Position numbers and translations under genes: made by a program. The notes beneath the pieces were generated by a model. That model had not been told where the DNA came from and did not search any database. It saw only the letters and a list, made by a program, of their open reading frames with translations. From IMG/VR virus record IMGVR_UViG_3300042516_002421, positions 1-64,000 of that record: a stretch of 64,000 nucleotides of DNA; one strand, given 5' to 3'. Shown here one piece after another: positions 11,761 to 23,834 of the stretch (its first letter is position 1; each line of letters starts with the position of its first letter). The stretch comes from a virus.

Positions 11761-14700
11761 ATGCCAAAAGCAGTTCAACTTCCTAATGGTTCTTGGTTTC
11801 CACTGTTGGAAAATGAAGATCCTACGGATGCGCTTATAGAAGCTCAGAAGAAGTACCCGGAAGCTTTTGGGATTGCTCCTCCTAAGCCTGCAAAAGAGCT
11901 TGGGGCTGCGGGCTTTTCACTTAGAGATCTGGCAACGTCCTTCGGCCTTGGTGCGGTTGGCGGGACCAAAGCACTTACCGATGTTGCAGGCGCAGACAAT
12001 GTTGCATCGCAGCAATTGCAAAGGGCAAGTCAAGCACTTCAGGAGACGTTTACTCCTGAGCGTCAAGCTGAACTGCAAAGACAACAGCGCCGGATGCAGG
12101 CTGCTGAGAAAGAAGGAACGCTGGCAGAAATTGGGGCGGGTCTACGGAATGTTCTCGAGGCACCGCTTCAATCTACGGCTCAGGCTATTGGTTCGTTTGT
12201 ACCGTACTTGCCGGCATTGTTTGCTGCTCCCGCGGCGGCTGCTTTGCGTCTGGCTCCTGGGGCTGTCCGTGCCGTAACTGCTGCTGCTGATGCCGCACCG
12301 GCGGTAATTGGTACGGCTCAAGGACTTGGTGCTGTCAAGGGCTCGATCTATGAAGGGGTGCTAAGGGCTGAGATTGAAGCTGGCACTCCGGAGAATGTTG
12401 CTCAAGCCAAGGCGGTCCGGGCGCAAGAGTATTTTGGCAACAACTTCGAGCAGATTGCACTGGGTGGTGCGCTTGGATACGGTGCAGCACGGTTTGGTGC
12501 AGAACGGCTGCTGACCCCTGGTGGTAGGCAGGGATTGCCTGCTGGCCTTGGAAGGCGCGTCGGTACTACCGCGGTGGCTGAGGCAGGTACTGAAGCTGCA
12601 CAGGCGGCTCAAGAGCGGGTTGCACAGAATCTGGCACTGCAACGAGAAGGATTTGATGTACCTACTTTCCAGGGTGCAGCTGGTGCTGCGACTCAGGAAG
12701 GTTTGATGGGTGCCCTGGGTGGTGCTCCTGTGGCTGCTTTTGCAAGGCCAACCGCTGCGCCTGTTGCTCCGCAGGCTCCTTTCGTAGAAGAGCCAGCACC
12801 TCCAGCCCCGCCATCAGAACTCCAGACAGCGATTGAAAGAACTACTGGGGTAGCTGCTCCTGCACCAATGCAGCCTATGAGCCTGGAAGAAGCACGAATT
12901 GCCAGGATGCGCAAGGCTCAGGAGGACATAGATGCGGCTGTAGAACAGGAACAAGAACGCGCCAGGAGGTTCGGCCCTCGTCCTTCTGTGCCTGTGGTTC
13001 AGCCTATGGATACTGGTCGTATGGCAGAAACGATGCCTATGGCCACGCCCATGGATCGGTTGCTTGAGAAACAGCGACAAGTCGATGAGCGCCGTCTGGC
13101 TGCTGGGTTGCCCACAAGCACTGGCGTTATGCCGGAAGGGACCAAACCTGAGCGGCCAAGAGAGCCCAAGATTGTTGATAACCGTCCGTTGAATGAACAG
13201 GGTGCCCGTAATCGCCTGATGGTGATGCAGGACATGCTGAAGAACGAGGGCGGCGATCCTAATAGTCTGGCCATCATCCCTCACCCCACGGCTAAGGGGC
13301 GGTTTGCCATTACATCGCTTGATCGTCCTGTTGAACTGACGCCAGGACTACCTGAGACGGCTATTACGAAGCCGCCGGCAGAGCCCATCATTGACCCGGT
13401 TGACGCCTATGTCAATCGTGCAAGGGCTACAAACACGCCAGCTGCTATGCGGTTTGTTCGGGACTATGACGATGGCCGCATAACCCGTGCTGACGTTGAG
13501 CGGGCTTTGGAAGCTGAGCGACAGGCTGGTCGTCCCTTGCCGTTTACTTACACCGAAACAGGTGAGCCTGGAATTGTTGCCCCTGGTGGGTTCAAAGCCA
13601 GGGCTCCGGCAACTGAGACGCAGATAGAGCTAAAGAGGATTAGCGACAGCAACAGTGACTTTGCTGTGGATAACGTGGTCAGTGATGGCAAGCGGCAATT
13701 TGTTGCCAGTGCTACGCCCACATTGGACACTGAGAAACGACTGCCTTTGGTATTGACCAGTGCTGAGCAGTCAGCGGCAGATGCTATTCAAGATCGTCTT
13801 GATGCATCGACCACCGCAGAGGAGAGGACAGAGGCAGAGGCTTTGCTCAGGAACACTCTGAGAAGGGCGCTGTCTCGCAATCTCGCTGATGTTGACGTAG
13901 GCCGGTTTCAGCCGCCTACGGCAGAGACTCCGCCTGTTGAGCCTCCTCCCACAGAGCCACCGCCTACAGAGCCTCCACCGCCTACTGTTGAACCGCCAAA
14001 GTCGGCAGCTGAGTTGGCACAACGCTTGCCGGTCTTGCGTCAGAACCCTGAGGTTGAGGCTGCTAATAAAGCAGGTAACTTCGGTGCGCTAATTGATGCG
14101 CTGGCCAAGAGCAGCAATCCTGTTGTCAAAAAGATTGCAGAGATCTCGCAGAAGTACAGGAACAAAATCACGCTGAAGAAAGCACAGCGTAGTTTTCCAA
14201 GGTATCCAAACGCCATTGGGTTGTACAACTCAGGCGAAGACTCTATCGTCATGCGTTCTGACTACGCTGGGGATGAGAGCACTAGCGTACATGAGATTGT
14301 TCATGGCTTGACAGTCAAGTCTATGCTTGCGCCTAATGCGCGTCAGCAGCCTATTGTCAAAGAGATTGAAGCCCTGTATCAATACGTCAAGGTAGAGCTT
14401 GCCAAGAAGGGCATGGGCTGGGATGGCAAGAAAAGGCCGCGCAAATTCCAGACTCAGGTCTATGGCATGGCCGATGCTTTTGAATTTGTAAGCGAGGCAA
14501 ACAGCAATCCTGATTTTCAGTTCTTGCTGATGAACATCCCTTACAAGGGCAATCGCAGTGCTTGGACTCAATTTACCCGCTTGGTTGCTAATCTGCTTGG
14601 CATCAAAGATGTCAATGCACTGACTGAGATCATCAACCTGACTGACAAACTGACGGCCATCCCTGGTCGTGGGTCTCTGTTTGGCCAAGGTAAGGGTCAG

Positions 14701-17700
14701 ATTTTTGAGCGTGCTGAGGGACGAGAGGTAAGCCCTATCGGCTTTTACTCTGCACTTTCTGACGCTGTTTCAAAGTCTACTGTTAAGGCTGCGCCGGTCG
14801 ATGGCTGGAAGGCCATGTTCAAAGGCATGGTCAACAAGGGCGTTGTCAAACAGAACGAACTTGAGTGGACTGGTATCAATGACTGGCTGGATCTACAGCA
14901 AGGCCGGGTCACCAAAGATCAGGTCAAAGAGTACCTTGATGCCAATGGTGTGCAGGTTGAGGAGACGGTGTTGGGTCGCCGCAATGGCGAGCGGCCGCCT
15001 ATCGTTGTGCGAATGAGCCAGCTCGAGAACGCTCTTGATGCTGGCGACGCAACCCAGGAGGAAATCGCCGAGTACCGAAGGCTAAGCGAGGAGGTCCGCC
15101 TGAATGGTCTCCCGGAGACTCCTGAGATCCTCCCCACCAAGTACGGTCAGTACACCCTACCCGGTGGCAAAAACTACCGTGAGGTGTTGCTGACATTACC
15201 AGTTCAGCAGACCCTTGAGGATCGTTATGCAGAGATGCGAGGCGAAGCAGGTAATGTCTATCGTTCTCGTCACTGGGATCAGCCTAACGTCCTCGCCCAC
15301 ATCCGGGTCAATGACAGGACCGATGCCGATGGCAACAAGGTTCTGTTCATTGAGGAGATCCAATCTGACTGGGGTCAAGAAGGCAAGAAGAAAGGTTTTG
15401 CTGGCAAACTAACTGGTAAAAATGCTGAGTATCAACGTTTATACAAACAGTTCCTTGATAACACACTCCCAGAAGATCAGTATGATTATTTTTATGAATT
15501 GCAAGATGAGCTTGGAGGTGGAATTGAGGCCGAGCGTGGATCAGCAATTCCAACCGCCCCCTTCGTCATCAAGACTGAAGGCTGGCTGAACCTTGCCCTC
15601 AAACGCATCATGATCATGGCTGCTGAAGGTGGCTATGACAAGGTGGCGTTTGTCAATGGTGAGCAGTCTGCTAATCGGTATGACCTAAGCAAATCTATTG
15701 ACCGCATCGATGCTAAGCGTAGACCAAATGGAACATATGAAATTGATGTTTCAACTAAAGAGGGGAAAGACTTTAATCGCAGCGGTCTGACGCCAGAAGA
15801 ACTTGAAGACAACGTTGGTAAGGAGATGGCGCAGAAGATCATCGACGCAACAGCCAGCGATCAAAAGCGTGTGCGCTTTAGCGGCCTTGACCTCAAAGTC
15901 GGCGGCGAAGGTATGAAGACCTTCTACGACAAGATCGTACCCAGCGCTCTTAATAAGCTGCTGCCTAAGCTTGGCGGCGGGAAGATGTCCACAATAGACA
16001 TTAGGCAGAGTGAGCCAACATTTAATCCCGACACAGGCGAGAAGGACATTTACGATTACGAGCCGCAACCCGGCTTTGACATCACCTCTGAGATGCGGGA
16101 CAAGGTTGATGAAGGCATCGAGTTGTTCAGCATGGAGCGTGAGCCAGAAGCACCGCCCAAGGTTGATGCCCGGAAAGAAATGGCCAAGGCAGAGGGTACG
16201 CCTGCACAACAAGCAGCCGCCATCCTTGAACAGACTGGCATGCAGCAGCAGGCTGAAGAGCCAAACCGGGTGAAGAACGTCCTCGAGTCTCTGCGGAAGA
16301 TGGGTGAGAACCCGCAGCTAACCAAAGAGTCGGCCAAGGCTACTCTCAAACAGTGGACCGATAAGCTCGAGACGATGGCGTTCTCGGGTGATGCTGCGTT
16401 CAACAATGACATCCGTCGCAACTTGATGGCGGATCTGAATGAGCACCCAGAAGTTATTGGCATGTTGCTCGAGGCCAGCCAATCACAGGCTGTGCATGCA
16501 GACGCCTTGGCTACGCAGTTCATCGTGGACGGCGGGATTGCCTATGACTCTGAAGCCAAAAAGTGGGTGTCGGTCAAGAAAGAGGACAACTTCATCAAGC
16601 TGTCCCAGTCGATTGACGCCTTGGCTGCGAAGTACAAAATCAGCAAACAAGAGGCTGAGCGTATTGCTCACACCCACTTTGTTGCCAAGCGGTTCAAGTC
16701 ACTGGCTGCAAAGCAGGACCGGCGCAATACTGAGATTGCTGATCTTGAAGAGAAGATCAACAAGGTCAACGGCGACATTCGCAGGGAAACTGATGCGAAT
16801 AAGCGTGACCGTTTGTACGCAGAGCGGGATGGATACCGTAAGCAGGTAGACGACCTGAAGAAGGCAAAGGTCTTAATCAGCGATGACCAGCGGGCAATGA
16901 TTGATCCTGGCATGCGGTTGGCTGAGATCATGCCAGAGCTCAAAGACATCAGTGACATTTGGCAGGGTATCCGTACCAATGCTGTCAAGGCACTTATGGA
17001 TGGCCAACTCTGGAGTATAGAGACGGCTGAGGACATGCTGGACAACGTTGACTACGTGCCTTTCTACAGGGACGAGCAACTGGAAGCAGGTGGCGGCCCG
17101 TTGGAATTTATCCGTGGTCTTCAGGTCAAGGCTGAGGAGTTCCGCCTGAAGGGCAGTAATGCTCCTGTGCATGACGTGTTTGACAACATGGTGCGCTGGA
17201 GTCAGTACGCGGTCAATCGAAGTGTGAGGAACCACAAAGCCTTGCAGATGATTGATCTCGGCAAGGAAATCAAAGTTGGTGACGCCAAGATGGCCACCAA
17301 AGTTGACAAGATGGAGCCGGGCAAAAACATTGTTCGCGTGTTCCGTAACGGTCAACAGGAGCTTTACGAGGTTGCCGATCCGCTGTACATGGATGCGTTC
17401 ACGTCCATCAGCAACGTGGCCATCCCCAGCATCAAGTTCTTCTCTTGGTTTGCTGACATGCTGCGTAACTCGGTGGTCTTGTACCCCTTGTTCTCGGTTG
17501 CCCAGGTGCCGCAGGATGCGTTCTCGGCCATGTTTACCTCTGGCCTGAAGCCTCGGTTTGCCCTCAAGATCCCGATGCTGGCGGTCAAAGAGTTTGTCAA
17601 GACACTGACCAAGACTAGCCAGACGCACAACCTTCTCAAGAAGTATGGTGCAACTGGTGTGCGTGACTTCTCGGCTGCTGTCGCCCGGATGGATGTGGAA

Positions 17701-18978
17701 ATTGCTGCTGGCTTGAAGCCGCCCAAGACAATCACTGGCAAGGGCATCGAGCTTCTCAGTCACATTGCCATGTCGGCTGACAATGCTATTCGACAGGCGG
17801 TCTACGAAGCGTCGATGCAGCAAGGCTTGAGCAAAGCTGAAGCGATTGAGAAAGCCTTTGACATCATCAACTTCCGTCGCCGCGGAAGCAGCAAGATGAT
17901 CAACCTGCTGGGTCAGGTGGTGCCGTTCTTCTACGCGTACATGTCTGTTCAGCGTGTGGCCATGAAGACCATTACGGGAACTGGCATCTCTCCGTCTAAT
18001 CGGATGGCGGCTCTGTCTACCCTGGCCACCATGTCAGGCGGTCTGATGGCCATGAGCATGCTGTATGCGATGCTGGTTGCTGAGGACGAGGACTATCAGG
18101 ATACGCCTACAGCGGTGCGAGATCGAGTTTTGGTGATCCCAGGAACTGGCTTGCGGATTCCTCTGCGCCCGGACATGTTCCTGATGCCGAAGGTTCTCGC
18201 CGAGCACACCTATCACCTGCTAACTGACAACGGTATGTCGGATGCTAAGAAGGCCAGGACTTCTATGTTCGACGCGCTGGTCAATGCTGTATCCAGCCCA
18301 ACACCGGTTCCGCAGGCTATCAAGCCTGTGCTCGAGGTGGCGGTCAACTATGACTTCTTCCAGGGCAAGCCGGTCGTGGGCTTCTTTGAGAAACAAAAGG
18401 AAGCCGAGCGGCAGTTTACGGATGCCACCTCGGAGTTTTCTAAGATACTTGGCAAGGCCGGCGCATCACCGATAGTGGCAGATCATCTGATCCGCGGGAT
18501 GTTTGGATCTGTGGGTGGGTTGTTCCTGTATACAACCAACTTCATGATCAACAACGACTCTGCTGTCGAGCGTCCGTCGGTCTCTGTCAAGGACATGATT
18601 GCAAGCGTTCCGGGTACTGGCGGGTTCGTTGGCAAGAGCACGGAGAATGCCCTGAAGAATGACTTCTATCTGCTGCGGGATGAGGTGGCCAAAGCCAAGG
18701 CAACCTACAACGACATCAAGGTTCGTTCACCGCAGGGCATAGAAGAGTTCCTGGCCGACGAGAAGAACGTCATCAGGCTGAAGATGGCTCGTACGACTGA
18801 GAAGATCGCAGACGAATTGAGCAAGATCCGCAGGGCAATTTCTCAGGTGAACAACGCACCGTCTGATCTCATGACGCCAGAACAAAAGGGAGAGAAGATT
18901 GAAGAGCTCCGCCGCGTTGAAAAGGAAATGCTCAAAGCGGTTGATGTCAAGGGCTTGAGGGCGCTAGCTCAGCTGTAA
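11761..18978 (+). CDS. Giant polyvalent DNA-ejection protein with metallopeptidase-like motif
   Basis: 2405 residues, the largest gene. In order: an N-terminal hydrophobic Ala/Gly region (about 130-330); Pro-rich linkers (about 345-370 and 718-745); a zinc-peptidase motif HEIVH at 844-848; a block starting HWDQPN at about 1171 with IEEIQSDW near 1197, typical of large phage polyvalent proteins; a charged helical middle; and a C-terminal region with FRRRGSSK near 2037 and hydrophobic helices resembling the LPD38 domain. The family is thought to be packed in the capsid and injected with the DNA, protecting or translocating it. The 3' end overlaps the opposing gene at 18964 by 15 bases. Confidence 0.8.
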   Translation: MPKAVQLPNGSWFPLLENEDPTDALIEAQKKYPEAFGIAPPKPAKELGAAGFSLRDLATSFGLGAVGGTKALTDVAGADNVASQQLQRASQALQETFTPERQAELQRQQRRMQAAEKEGTLAEIGAGLRNVLEAPLQSTAQAIGSFVPYLPALFAAPAAAALRLAPGAVRAVTAAADAAPAVIGTAQGLGAVKGSIYEGVLRAEIEAGTPENVAQAKAVRAQEYFGNNFEQIALGGALGYGAARFGAERLLTPGGRQGLPAGLGRRVGTTAVAEAGTEAAQAAQERVAQNLALQREGFDVPTFQGAAGAATQEGLMGALGGAPVAAFARPTAAPVAPQAPFVEEPAPPAPPSELQTAIERTTGVAAPAPMQPMSLEEARIARMRKAQEDIDAAVEQEQERARRFGPRPSVPVVQPMDTGRMAETMPMATPMDRLLEKQRQVDERRLAAGLPTSTGVMPEGTKPERPREPKIVDNRPLNEQGARNRLMVMQDMLKNEGGDPNSLAIIPHPTAKGRFAITSLDRPVELTPGLPETAITKPPAEPIIDPVDAYVNRARATNTPAAMRFVRDYDDGRITRADVERALEAERQAGRPLPFTYTETGEPGIVAPGGFKARAPATETQIELKRISDSNSDFAVDNVVSDGKRQFVASATPTLDTEKRLPLVLTSAEQSAADAIQDRLDASTTAEERTEAEALLRNTLRRALSRNLADVDVGRFQPPTAETPPVEPPPTEPPPTEPPPPTVEPPKSAAELAQRLPVLRQNPEVEAANKAGNFGALIDALAKSSNPVVKKIAEISQKYRNKITLKKAQRSFPRYPNAIGLYNSGEDSIVMRSDYAGDESTSVHEIVHGLTVKSMLAPNARQQPIVKEIEALYQYVKVELAKKGMGWDGKKRPRKFQTQVYGMADAFEFVSEANSNPDFQFLLMNIPYKGNRSAWTQFTRLVANLLGIKDVNALTEIINLTDKLTAIPGRGSLFGQGKGQIFERAEGREVSPIGFYSALSDAVSKSTVKAAPVDGWKAMFKGMVNKGVVKQNELEWTGINDWLDLQQGRVTKDQVKEYLDANGVQVEETVLGRRNGERPPIVVRMSQLENALDAGDATQEEIAEYRRLSEEVRLNGLPETPEILPTKYGQYTLPGGKNYREVLLTLPVQQTLEDRYAEMRGEAGNVYRSRHWDQPNVLAHIRVNDRTDADGNKVLFIEEIQSDWGQEGKKKGFAGKLTGKNAEYQRLYKQFLDNTLPEDQYDYFYELQDELGGGIEAERGSAIPTAPFVIKTEGWLNLALKRIMIMAAEGGYDKVAFVNGEQSANRYDLSKSIDRIDAKRRPNGTYEIDVSTKEGKDFNRSGLTPEELEDNVGKEMAQKIIDATASDQKRVRFSGLDLKVGGEGMKTFYDKIVPSALNKLLPKLGGGKMSTIDIRQSEPTFNPDTGEKDIYDYEPQPGFDITSEMRDKVDEGIELFSMEREPEAPPKVDARKEMAKAEGTPAQQAAAILEQTGMQQQAEEPNRVKNVLESLRKMGENPQLTKESAKATLKQWTDKLETMAFSGDAAFNNDIRRNLMADLNEHPEVIGMLLEASQSQAVHADALATQFIVDGGIAYDSEAKKWVSVKKEDNFIKLSQSIDALAAKYKISKQEAERIAHTHFVAKRFKSLAAKQDRRNTEIADLEEKINKVNGDIRRETDANKRDRLYAERDGYRKQVDDLKKAKVLISDDQRAMIDPGMRLAEIMPELKDISDIWQGIRTNAVKALMDGQLWSIETAEDMLDNVDYVPFYRDEQLEAGGGPLEFIRGLQVKAEEFRLKGSNAPVHDVFDNMVRWSQYAVNRSVRNHKALQMIDLGKEIKVGDAKMATKVDKMEPGKNIVRVFRNGQQELYEVADPLYMDAFTSISNVAIPSIKFFSWFADMLRNSVVLYPLFSVAQVPQDAFSAMFTSGLKPRFALKIPMLAVKEFVKTLTKTSQTHNLLKKYGATGVRDFSAAVARMDVEIAAGLKPPKTITGKGIELLSHIAMSADNAIRQAVYEASMQQGLSKAEAIEKAFDIINFRRRGSSKMINLLGQVVPFFYAYMSVQRVAMKTITGTGISPSNRMAALSTLATMSGGLMAMSMLYAMLVAEDEDYQDTPTAVRDRVLVIPGTGLRIPLRPDMFLMPKVLAEHTYHLLTDNGMSDAKKARTSMFDALVNAVSSPTPVPQAIKPVLEVAVNYDFFQGKPVVGFFEKQKEAERQFTDATSEFSKILGKAGASPIVADHLIRGMFGSVGGLFLYTTNFMINNDSAVERPSVSVKDMIASVPGTGGFVGKSTENALKNDFYLLRDEVAKAKATYNDIKVRSPQGIEEFLADEKNVIRLKMARTTEKIADELSKIRRAISQVNNAPSDLMTPEQKGEKIEELRRVEKEMLKAVDVKGLRALAQL

Positions 18979-23145: not shown

Positions 23146-23259
23146 ATGGCCAAACGTATCCTTGCCGCACTGAGCATTGTCCTGGCCACTAGCGCCTGGG
23201 CTCAATGCACCACCCACGCCATAACAGCCAACGGTCGTGTGGTCACCTGCACTGTTTGA
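23146..23259 (+). CDS. Tiny secreted peptide related to 21640..21789
   Basis: 37 residues: a signal peptide (MAKRILAALSIVLATSAWA) and an 18-residue mature part with two cysteines (QCTTHAITANGRVVTCTV). The mature core matches the start of the Cys-rich peptide at 21640..21789 but ends before the CC...C part. Translation may be limited by the hairpin that covers its ribosome-binding site. Function unknown; related but encoded on the opposite strand. Confidence 0.6.
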   Translation: MAKRILAALSIVLATSAWAQCTTHAITANGRVVTCTV

Positions 23260-23278
23260 AAAAATCTTTGTTGACCCC

Positions 23279-23308
23279 TTGACAGGGGCTTAAAAGATCC
23301 GGTAAAGT
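23279..23308 (+). promoter_or_regulatory. Promoter of structured RNA
   Basis: TTGACA at 23279-23284 (perfect), 18-bp spacer, TAAAGT at 23303-23308 (4/6). The predicted start near 23312-23316 coincides with the first hairpin of the RNA, and no open reading frame of note follows. Confidence 0.6.
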
Positions 23309-23311
23309 TCG

Positions 23312-23441
23312 TTCCATTGCTAGGCAGTGGAATGCTAAGCAAGAGCCGATAAGTCAGATCCCGACCCCGTAATGGGGTTGCGCCAGTCCAAAAGATTGGT
23401 GTCATTCCACCGGGGTCTGTCTTATCGGCTTTTTTGTTTTC
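23312..23441 (+). ncRNA. Candidate structured small RNA with intrinsic terminator
   Basis: A 5' hairpin TTCCATTGC/GCAGTGGAA (23312-23332) is followed by a long stem: AGCCGATAAG (23344-23353) pairs with CTTATCGGCT (23421-23430), and after one T-T mismatch CAGATCCCG pairs with CGGGGTCTG. Inside are two hairpins, ACCCC/GGGGT and GCCAGTC/GATTGGT. A T-run (TTTTTTGTTTT) follows. Several pairs are G-U only in the plus-strand transcript, which fixes the strand. GTGGAATG (23327-23334) can also pair with CATTCCAC (23403-23410), giving an alternative fold. No known family was recognised. Confidence 0.6.
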
Positions 23442-23453
23442 CACGCCCAGCTG

Positions 23454-23805
23454 TGCTCCAGAAGTCTATCGGGTTCTGGGTCGGCATGAGGGAAGCGTAG
23501 GAAGCCTTCGGGTGTAGTCCGCAGTCCACCGACCCTACAACGTTCTGGTCTGGGGCGAGAGCGCACAGAAGATGCAAGCGCAATTGGGGATGACGCCGTA
23601 GATGTCCGGGGGTTCAAGTCCACCGGGTGGCATTTGCGGTACGGGCGGCCAAGCTAGACGCAGCAGGATGCGGAAAGTGCCCGTAGGTGGATCAGCCTGA
23701 TGTGAGTCCACCCCACACGATACTCAGCTACGGCTCCGGGGATGTGGAAAGTTGCCAACGGGATTCAGTTCCCGTAGGCAATCCCATGTCCAGCCGAGCC
23801 TAGCA
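23454..23805 (+). other. Non-coding stretch with extensive RNA-like secondary structure
   Basis: No convincing gene. Inverted repeats in order: CCAGAA/TTCTGG (23458-23479); GGGTCGG/CCGACCC (23478-23535); a T-arm-like GGGTTCAAGTCC near 23610; ACGGGC/GCCCGT (23641-23684); GGTGGA/TCCACC; and a nested long arm at 23727-23799 in which GGCTACGGCT pairs with AGCCGAGCC (one bulge), GGATGTGG with CCATGTCC, TTGCC with GGCAA, and ACGGGA with TCCCGT. The two G-U pairs in one helix again favour plus-strand RNA. A short motif GGATGYGGAAAGT occurs twice. May be a large structured RNA of unknown class. Confidence 0.45.
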
Positions 23806-23834
23806 CTCACCAAAGATGTCAAAACACAGCACCT

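Follow-up and report, generated by a model that had tools for sequence, protein, structure and literature searches.

Comparative analysis of related viral sequences indicates that the stretch at 23279-23441 of the window is a genuine gene for a folded RNA, conserved in the evolution of bacterial viruses. On balance we lean towards reading it as the 5' module of a two-part phage noncoding RNA (ncRNA) unit, an RNA that acts in trans and carries a leaky terminator metering a 3' RNA. The comparative data show a kept promoter position, conserved helices, a covarying pseudoknot, a U-run, an adjacent 3' RNA and modular exchange. The unit is apparently undescribed before: no earlier account was found in the literature covered, which stopped short of most subscription papers and of the 2017 survey of 224 RNAs. 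That paper on 224 candidate RNAs is presumably the source of the Rfam family RF02932. The window, the whole stretch of DNA analysed, comprises 64 kb of a 66.4-kb virus record and encodes a large terminase, a portal, head genes, a helicase, a primase, an Erf-type annealing protein and SSB; the closest relatives of the portal are in phages such as Pelagibacter phage HTVC027P. A single ORF of 2405 aa (11761-18978, +) precedes the replication region.

Related phage loci were fetched by means of neighbouring protein genes, and nhmmer, then run on these loci, found the RNA in L003, L004, L009, L010, L085 and MW202545.1 (Manatee Spring phage). A degenerate pattern of the core sequence matched at least 119 IMG/VR viral contigs, while the same pattern with a scrambled 3' part gave no match in viral contigs. 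Nine matches were obtained in 257 Gb of cellular genomes. By inspection they lack the flanking anatomy, their model scores reach at most 25.5 bits and they look like chance, so a cellular occurrence was rejected. MW202545.1 was the sole match in the phage and plasmid collections, and 1 of 50,697 INPHARED records carries the RNA. Nearly all examples are metagenomic contigs from uncultivated phages, which may be why the family has been missed so far.

From these matches, 69 non-redundant RNAs were aligned (alignment A1). The invariance of the core is partly forced by the search pattern, and the covarying positions lie outside its fixed letters. RNAalifold recovered the P1 stem and the hairpins described below, with 16 doubly substituted pairs. 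When the pseudoknot is counted among the variable helices, 95.5% of cells are paired, compared with 82.9% in shuffled alignments and at most 53.6% when strands are slid by 1-3 columns; the covariation score with the pseudoknot is 0.396, against 0.161 shuffled and at most 0.124 slid. The covariation search proposed with the original prediction was thereby carried out on the 69 RNAs, and the helices passed it, covarying strongly. The claim that no known family matches the RNA also held: at the gathering threshold, Rfam 15 (4227 models) gave no match in the whole window and none for the 5' modules of 14 further loci. In the 1 kb around the RNA, a search at E <= 10 returned only one sub-threshold match, on the minus strand and implausible.

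A sigma70-type promoter is predicted at 23279-23308 (+). The perfect TTGACA described earlier is present as the -35 element (23279-23284), and the best -10 candidate, TAAAGT (23303-23308), follows after an 18-nt spacer. This placement sets the expected transcript start near 23315. Exact TTGACA occurs in 71% of the 69 homologues, whose promoters score 10.0/12 on average as opposed to 7.5/12 in block shuffles, and the distance from the end of the -10 element to the conserved core is 40-59 nt in 66 of them. The contents of 23279-23441 are as originally claimed, while the interval does not serve as the extent of the RNA, since it takes in the promoter; we moved the RNA start to near 23315. With this promoter and a terminator, a structured RNA on the plus strand needs no reading frame, as had been proposed. 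The minus-strand ORF at 23202-23444 is unsupported, and a protein-coding explanation was rejected. Immediately 5' of the RNA lies a tiny plus-strand ORF (23146-23259) with counterparts in L003, L107, L183, L190 and L193. The encoded peptides (37-50 aa) begin much like a signal peptide and share a conserved motif, C(S/T)TH...NGR.VTCT; in relatives they are Cys-rich.

The minimum free energy (MFE) of the 5' module is -73.7 kcal/mol (z = -7.85), and none of 200 shuffles was equally stable. The predicted branched fold, with its main stem, one T.T mismatch and two inner hairpins, was found as claimed. The stem, P1, is formed by 23343-23363 and 23411-23431 (+), 21 positions on the 5' strand with the mismatch at 23354. 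Covariation is evident in the homologues: 10 of its 20 pairs have changed on both sides, and 99.3% of cells are paired in the 69 sequences. At its foot, the expected U-run (23430-23435, +) is present and kept as a T-run in the homologues, so that P1 and the U-run together provide the stable stem and U-run expected of an intrinsic terminator. Within P1, hairpin A (ACCCC/GGGGT, 23364-23378, +) is paired in 98.3% of aligned cells, a near-invariance partly built in by the search pattern. Hairpin B (23380-23402, +) appears in the MFE structure as GCGCCAGTC/GATTGGTGT in the window and is variable in sequence; all six of its tested pairs have changed on both sides in the 69-RNA alignment. Each of the 69 RNAs has exactly one G.U wobble in P1, in the upper stem at one of two neighbouring positions, columns 68/69 of A1 (window 23359-23360), which may perhaps stop P1 from pairing with the similar strand of hairpin A. 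Outside P1, the P0 hairpin (23317-23342, +) pairs TTGCTAGGC (23317-23325) with GCTAAGCAA (23334-23342) and holds GTGGAAT in its loop. Its stem averages 6.5 bp, against 5.4 +/- 0.15 with partners swapped among homologues; on this comparison the P0 stem is shorter and weaker, yet real.

The loop of P0 contains the 5' strand of a putative pseudoknot, GTGGAATG (23327-23334, +; 7-nt core GTGGAAT). Its exact complement CATTCCAC (23403-23410, +) is the junction strand J, which adjoins hairpin B and the 3' strand of P1. The two strands covary, and the helix is 93.7% paired in the 69-RNA alignment; one of its pairs occurs as GC (26), AU (22), CG (12) and UA (8) across the homologues. As an independent measure, J and the 5' region at best pair over 7.72 nt on average, compared with 5.48 +/- 0.16 when partners are exchanged. 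The original prediction had set this pairing against a 5' hairpin, UUCCAUUGC/GCAGUGGAA, and suggested a two-state RNA. That hairpin proved peculiar to the window copy, since its 5' strand is missing from L004, whose RNA is almost identical. What is conserved at the 5' end is P0, the hairpin around the GTGGAAT loop. The pairing of GTGGAATG with CATTCCAC, in contrast, is kept and covaries together with the main stem. As the pseudoknot is compatible with P1 and hairpins A and B, the two-state reading is unsupported, and a stable fold is the simpler interpretation, given that the pseudoknot does not compete with P1. A switch as the main reading was thus rejected.

Pairing of loop and J in cis rather than in trans is predicted from the geometry of the module. 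P1 is 18-23 nt long in 117 of 122 units, unrelated subfamilies included, and a spacer of 12 nt (median) separates it from the pseudoknot core. These lengths would fit a P0 hairpin docked beside a two-turn stem. They are uncorrelated (rho -0.03), which indicates no length compensation. Alternatively, the P0 loop might kiss J of another RNA to build dimers or rings, comparable to phi29 packaging RNA or the GOLLD and ROOL cages. Covariation does not distinguish the two arrangements. In 68 of 69 RNAs the loop and J show complementarity of 6-11 bp. GOLLD and ROOL, often found beside tRNA genes, do contain conserved intermolecular kissing loops (PMC12286853). We nevertheless hold the intermolecular arrangement to be improbable, as the near-constant P1 length, the short spacer and the position of J directly between hairpin B and P1 all fit docking within one molecule.

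The RNA had been described as a free-standing transcription unit. This part of the claim did not stand: a second covarying RNA begins about 15 nt past the U-run in the same orientation, with no room for a promoter between the two modules, and the window RNA is the 5' half. The second structured ncRNA, a 3' module that we call type D, extends over about 375 nt (approximately 23447-23822, +). In ten relatives, 34 of its 87 pairs are doubly changed, compared with 16.2 +/- 2.4 after shuffling and at most 14 after sliding, and G-U usage favours the plus strand. Relatives of type D follow 5' modules that belong either to the window's subfamily or to subfamily 2. The 3' region is no more stable than shuffled sequence (mean z +0.2), which makes fold energy uninformative here, and covariation was used instead; it is this covariation that supports a structured 3' module. 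A hairpin resembling a tRNA T-arm, GGGGGTTCAAGTCCACC, lies within type D at 23608-23624 of the window and is kept in some relatives and shortened in others.

Other loci carry other RNAs in the same slot. RF02932 (Betaproteobacteria-1 RNA) follows directly past the U-run in L002 (100.1 bits), L105 (98) and L136 (90.6), each a full-length match well above the gathering score of 49.4. No RF02932 match was obtained for the window's own 3' module, either in the window as a whole or in the 1 kb around the RNA, and no 3' type other than RF02932 had a match at gathering score among the loci scanned against Rfam. The most frequent 3' type, type A, counts 114 G-U against 8 A-C cells on the plus strand and 34 against 23 on the minus strand, and by this usage is an RNA on the same strand as the 5' module. 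In MW202545.1 (L002 5928-6385), two ORFs annotated as hypothetical proteins, UOF78434.1 and UOF78433.1, overlap the RNA of the 5' module and RF02932; both are probably spurious. Additional RNA-like modules, E (GGGAACTGG..GGGTTAGCKCC..CTGCTT) and F (TGATGATGGTG..CACCATCATCA), occur as insertions, either between U-run and 3' module or within a type A hairpin (E and F loci: L152, L174, L199, L005, L006, L007, L282; and L085, L100, L101, L102, L116, L127).

The association was also recovered when the search set out from the 3' side, with type A and RF02932: 69 of the 76 distinct regions upstream of the matches contain a terminator-type hairpin. Of these hairpin-bearing units, 65 have the U-run 8-39 nt before the 3' anchor, and 53 have a pseudoknot of at least 7 bp (mean 7.0 versus 5.1 +/- 0.14 swapped); about a quarter of the units found from this side are without a perfect 7-bp pseudoknot in that test. 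By inspection, the 5' modules fall into about seven sequence subfamilies. Unrelated subfamilies share the same anatomy with different codes, such as GTCGGAG/CTCCGAC, GTAGCAA/TTGCTAC and GTTGCGA/TCGCAAC, and one 3' type is found after different 5' subfamilies and vice versa. Identity between the window and L003 is 96-100% in most flanking blocks and falls to 65-78% in the 5' module; with L004 the module is 83-96% identical and the upstream flank about 30%. From these alignments, the 5' module is swapped between near-identical phages, and 5' and 3' modules mix freely.

The diversity of codes, 35 distinct 7-nt sequences in 122 units, and the exchange of 5' modules between near-identical phages would suit an RNA-based specificity system, an antisense immunity or exclusion device comparable to the phage P4 or c4 RNAs, in which the 7-nt code targets the same-code nascent RNA of another phage. 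A precedent is found in ColE1-type plasmids, where specificity is set by 7-nt loop kissing. We give this explanation very little weight: no separate target was found, codes of the GTGGAAR type are very common and would discriminate poorly, and there is no evidence for a temperate lifestyle of these phages.

For the unit as a trans-acting RNA with a leaky terminator, we propose the following course. Host sigma70 RNA polymerase would initiate at the TTGACA promoter and produce a predicted RNA of about 120 nt, in which the P0 hairpin would fold first, followed by hairpins A and B. J would pair with the P0 loop, in a pseudoknot of 7-11 bp, just before P1 closes, and closure of P1 would bring about termination at the U-run. 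With P0 and the pseudoknot alongside a P1 of roughly two turns, the RNA would be compact and stable. Some polymerases would read through the terminator into the 3' module, whose structured RNA is larger and of interchangeable type, and the terminator would in this way meter the amount of 3' RNA. Read-through is predicted solely because no promoter would fit between the modules, and the terminator itself looks strong. Both RNAs most likely act in trans during infection, as structured and possibly protein-binding RNAs.

The same arrangement might instead be a cis-acting attenuator similar to a riboswitch, with a regulated terminator and a pseudoknot that senses a ligand or protein and switches the 3' RNA on or off. 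The 5' module does sit between promoter and 3' module with the terminator as its closing stem, many 5' subfamilies precede the same 3' modules, and CGGGGTC in P1 could pair instead with GACCCCG of hairpin A in the window's subfamily. A post-terminator motif resembling J, TTTTCCAC (23437-23444, +), changes to TTTCTCAC in L003 alongside the change of code. CTCAC occurs in 5 of 11 GTGAG-type units and 3 of 57 others (Fisher p = 0.002, relatedness ignored). Since the motif follows the type of pseudoknot in some units, the P0 loop could find a new partner once polymerase has read through. The trend is weak, and the motif is missing from many units, including the subfamily-2 examples read, so we rejected it as a general second partner of the P0 loop. 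The promoter, folded leader, terminator stem, U-run and transcribed sequence beyond are likewise those of intrinsic-terminator leaders, attenuators and riboswitches. Against this, the pseudoknot and P1 are structurally compatible rather than exclusive, no conserved antiterminator pairing recurs across subfamilies by inspection, and what follows is a structured ncRNA and no fixed gene, the downstream genes being inconsistent and mixed in family and strand. An attenuator therefore appears to us unlikely, though it deserves to be taken seriously.

The mixed family and strand of the nearest downstream genes also bear on a possible partner gene: none recurs among the neighbours of the RNA loci, and this variation indicates no partner protein. 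A tRNA gene lies directly 5' of the unit in 6 of 94 loci, too few for tRNA linkage as a general rule. In L253, L256, L178, L003 and L004, a recurrent element ending CAGTCCCCAGCCGTGTTGGT is located 5' of the unit promoter, which suggests that it forms an array of ncRNA modules with the unit. Many loci are near replication, recombination or terminase genes, as might be expected of an origin, a packaging site or a recombination hot spot, a DNA-level element with hairpins that function as DNA and an incidental promoter. The location is not fixed, and the promoter, the terminator U-run and the one-sided G-U usage point to RNA; we find such an element hard to credit.

Among known systems, GOLLD and ROOL resemble the unit as phage-encoded structured ncRNAs of unknown function with conserved kissing interactions and in their tRNA-gene setting, seen here in 6 of 94 loci. 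The 5' module differs in being far smaller, with its own terminator, cassette exchange and another sequence and secondary structure. Neither the window nor the 14 loci matched the GOLLD or ROOL models at gathering score; RF02932 and tRNA were the only families matched. The phi29-type pRNA, another phage RNA, likewise combines a junction with a loop and a strand that are complementary. In contrast to it, the 5' module has no Rfam match, ends in a terminator and places its 5' hairpin outside the closing stem, and the host phage has a conventional large terminase. RF02932 is itself one of the unit's 3' modules; its Rfam entry covers only the 120-nt 3' element and not the 5' module.

Functions are known for few phage RNAs, and GOLLD and ROOL, the most elaborate of them, are still unexplained. 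The present work adds many phage RNAs that share a clear anatomy, together with a pseudoknot code that covaries and module swaps that occur in nature, features that make function testable by exchange of parts, and it places the orphan family RF02932 in the context of a transcription unit. We tentatively raise the possibility of a new modular RNA device, in which a pseudoknot-coded terminator RNA stands interchangeably before several ornate ncRNAs. If so, the unit would work as a plug-in RNA operon, regulating or countering defence through RNA alone, and would have spread across diverse uncultivated phages by cassette exchange.
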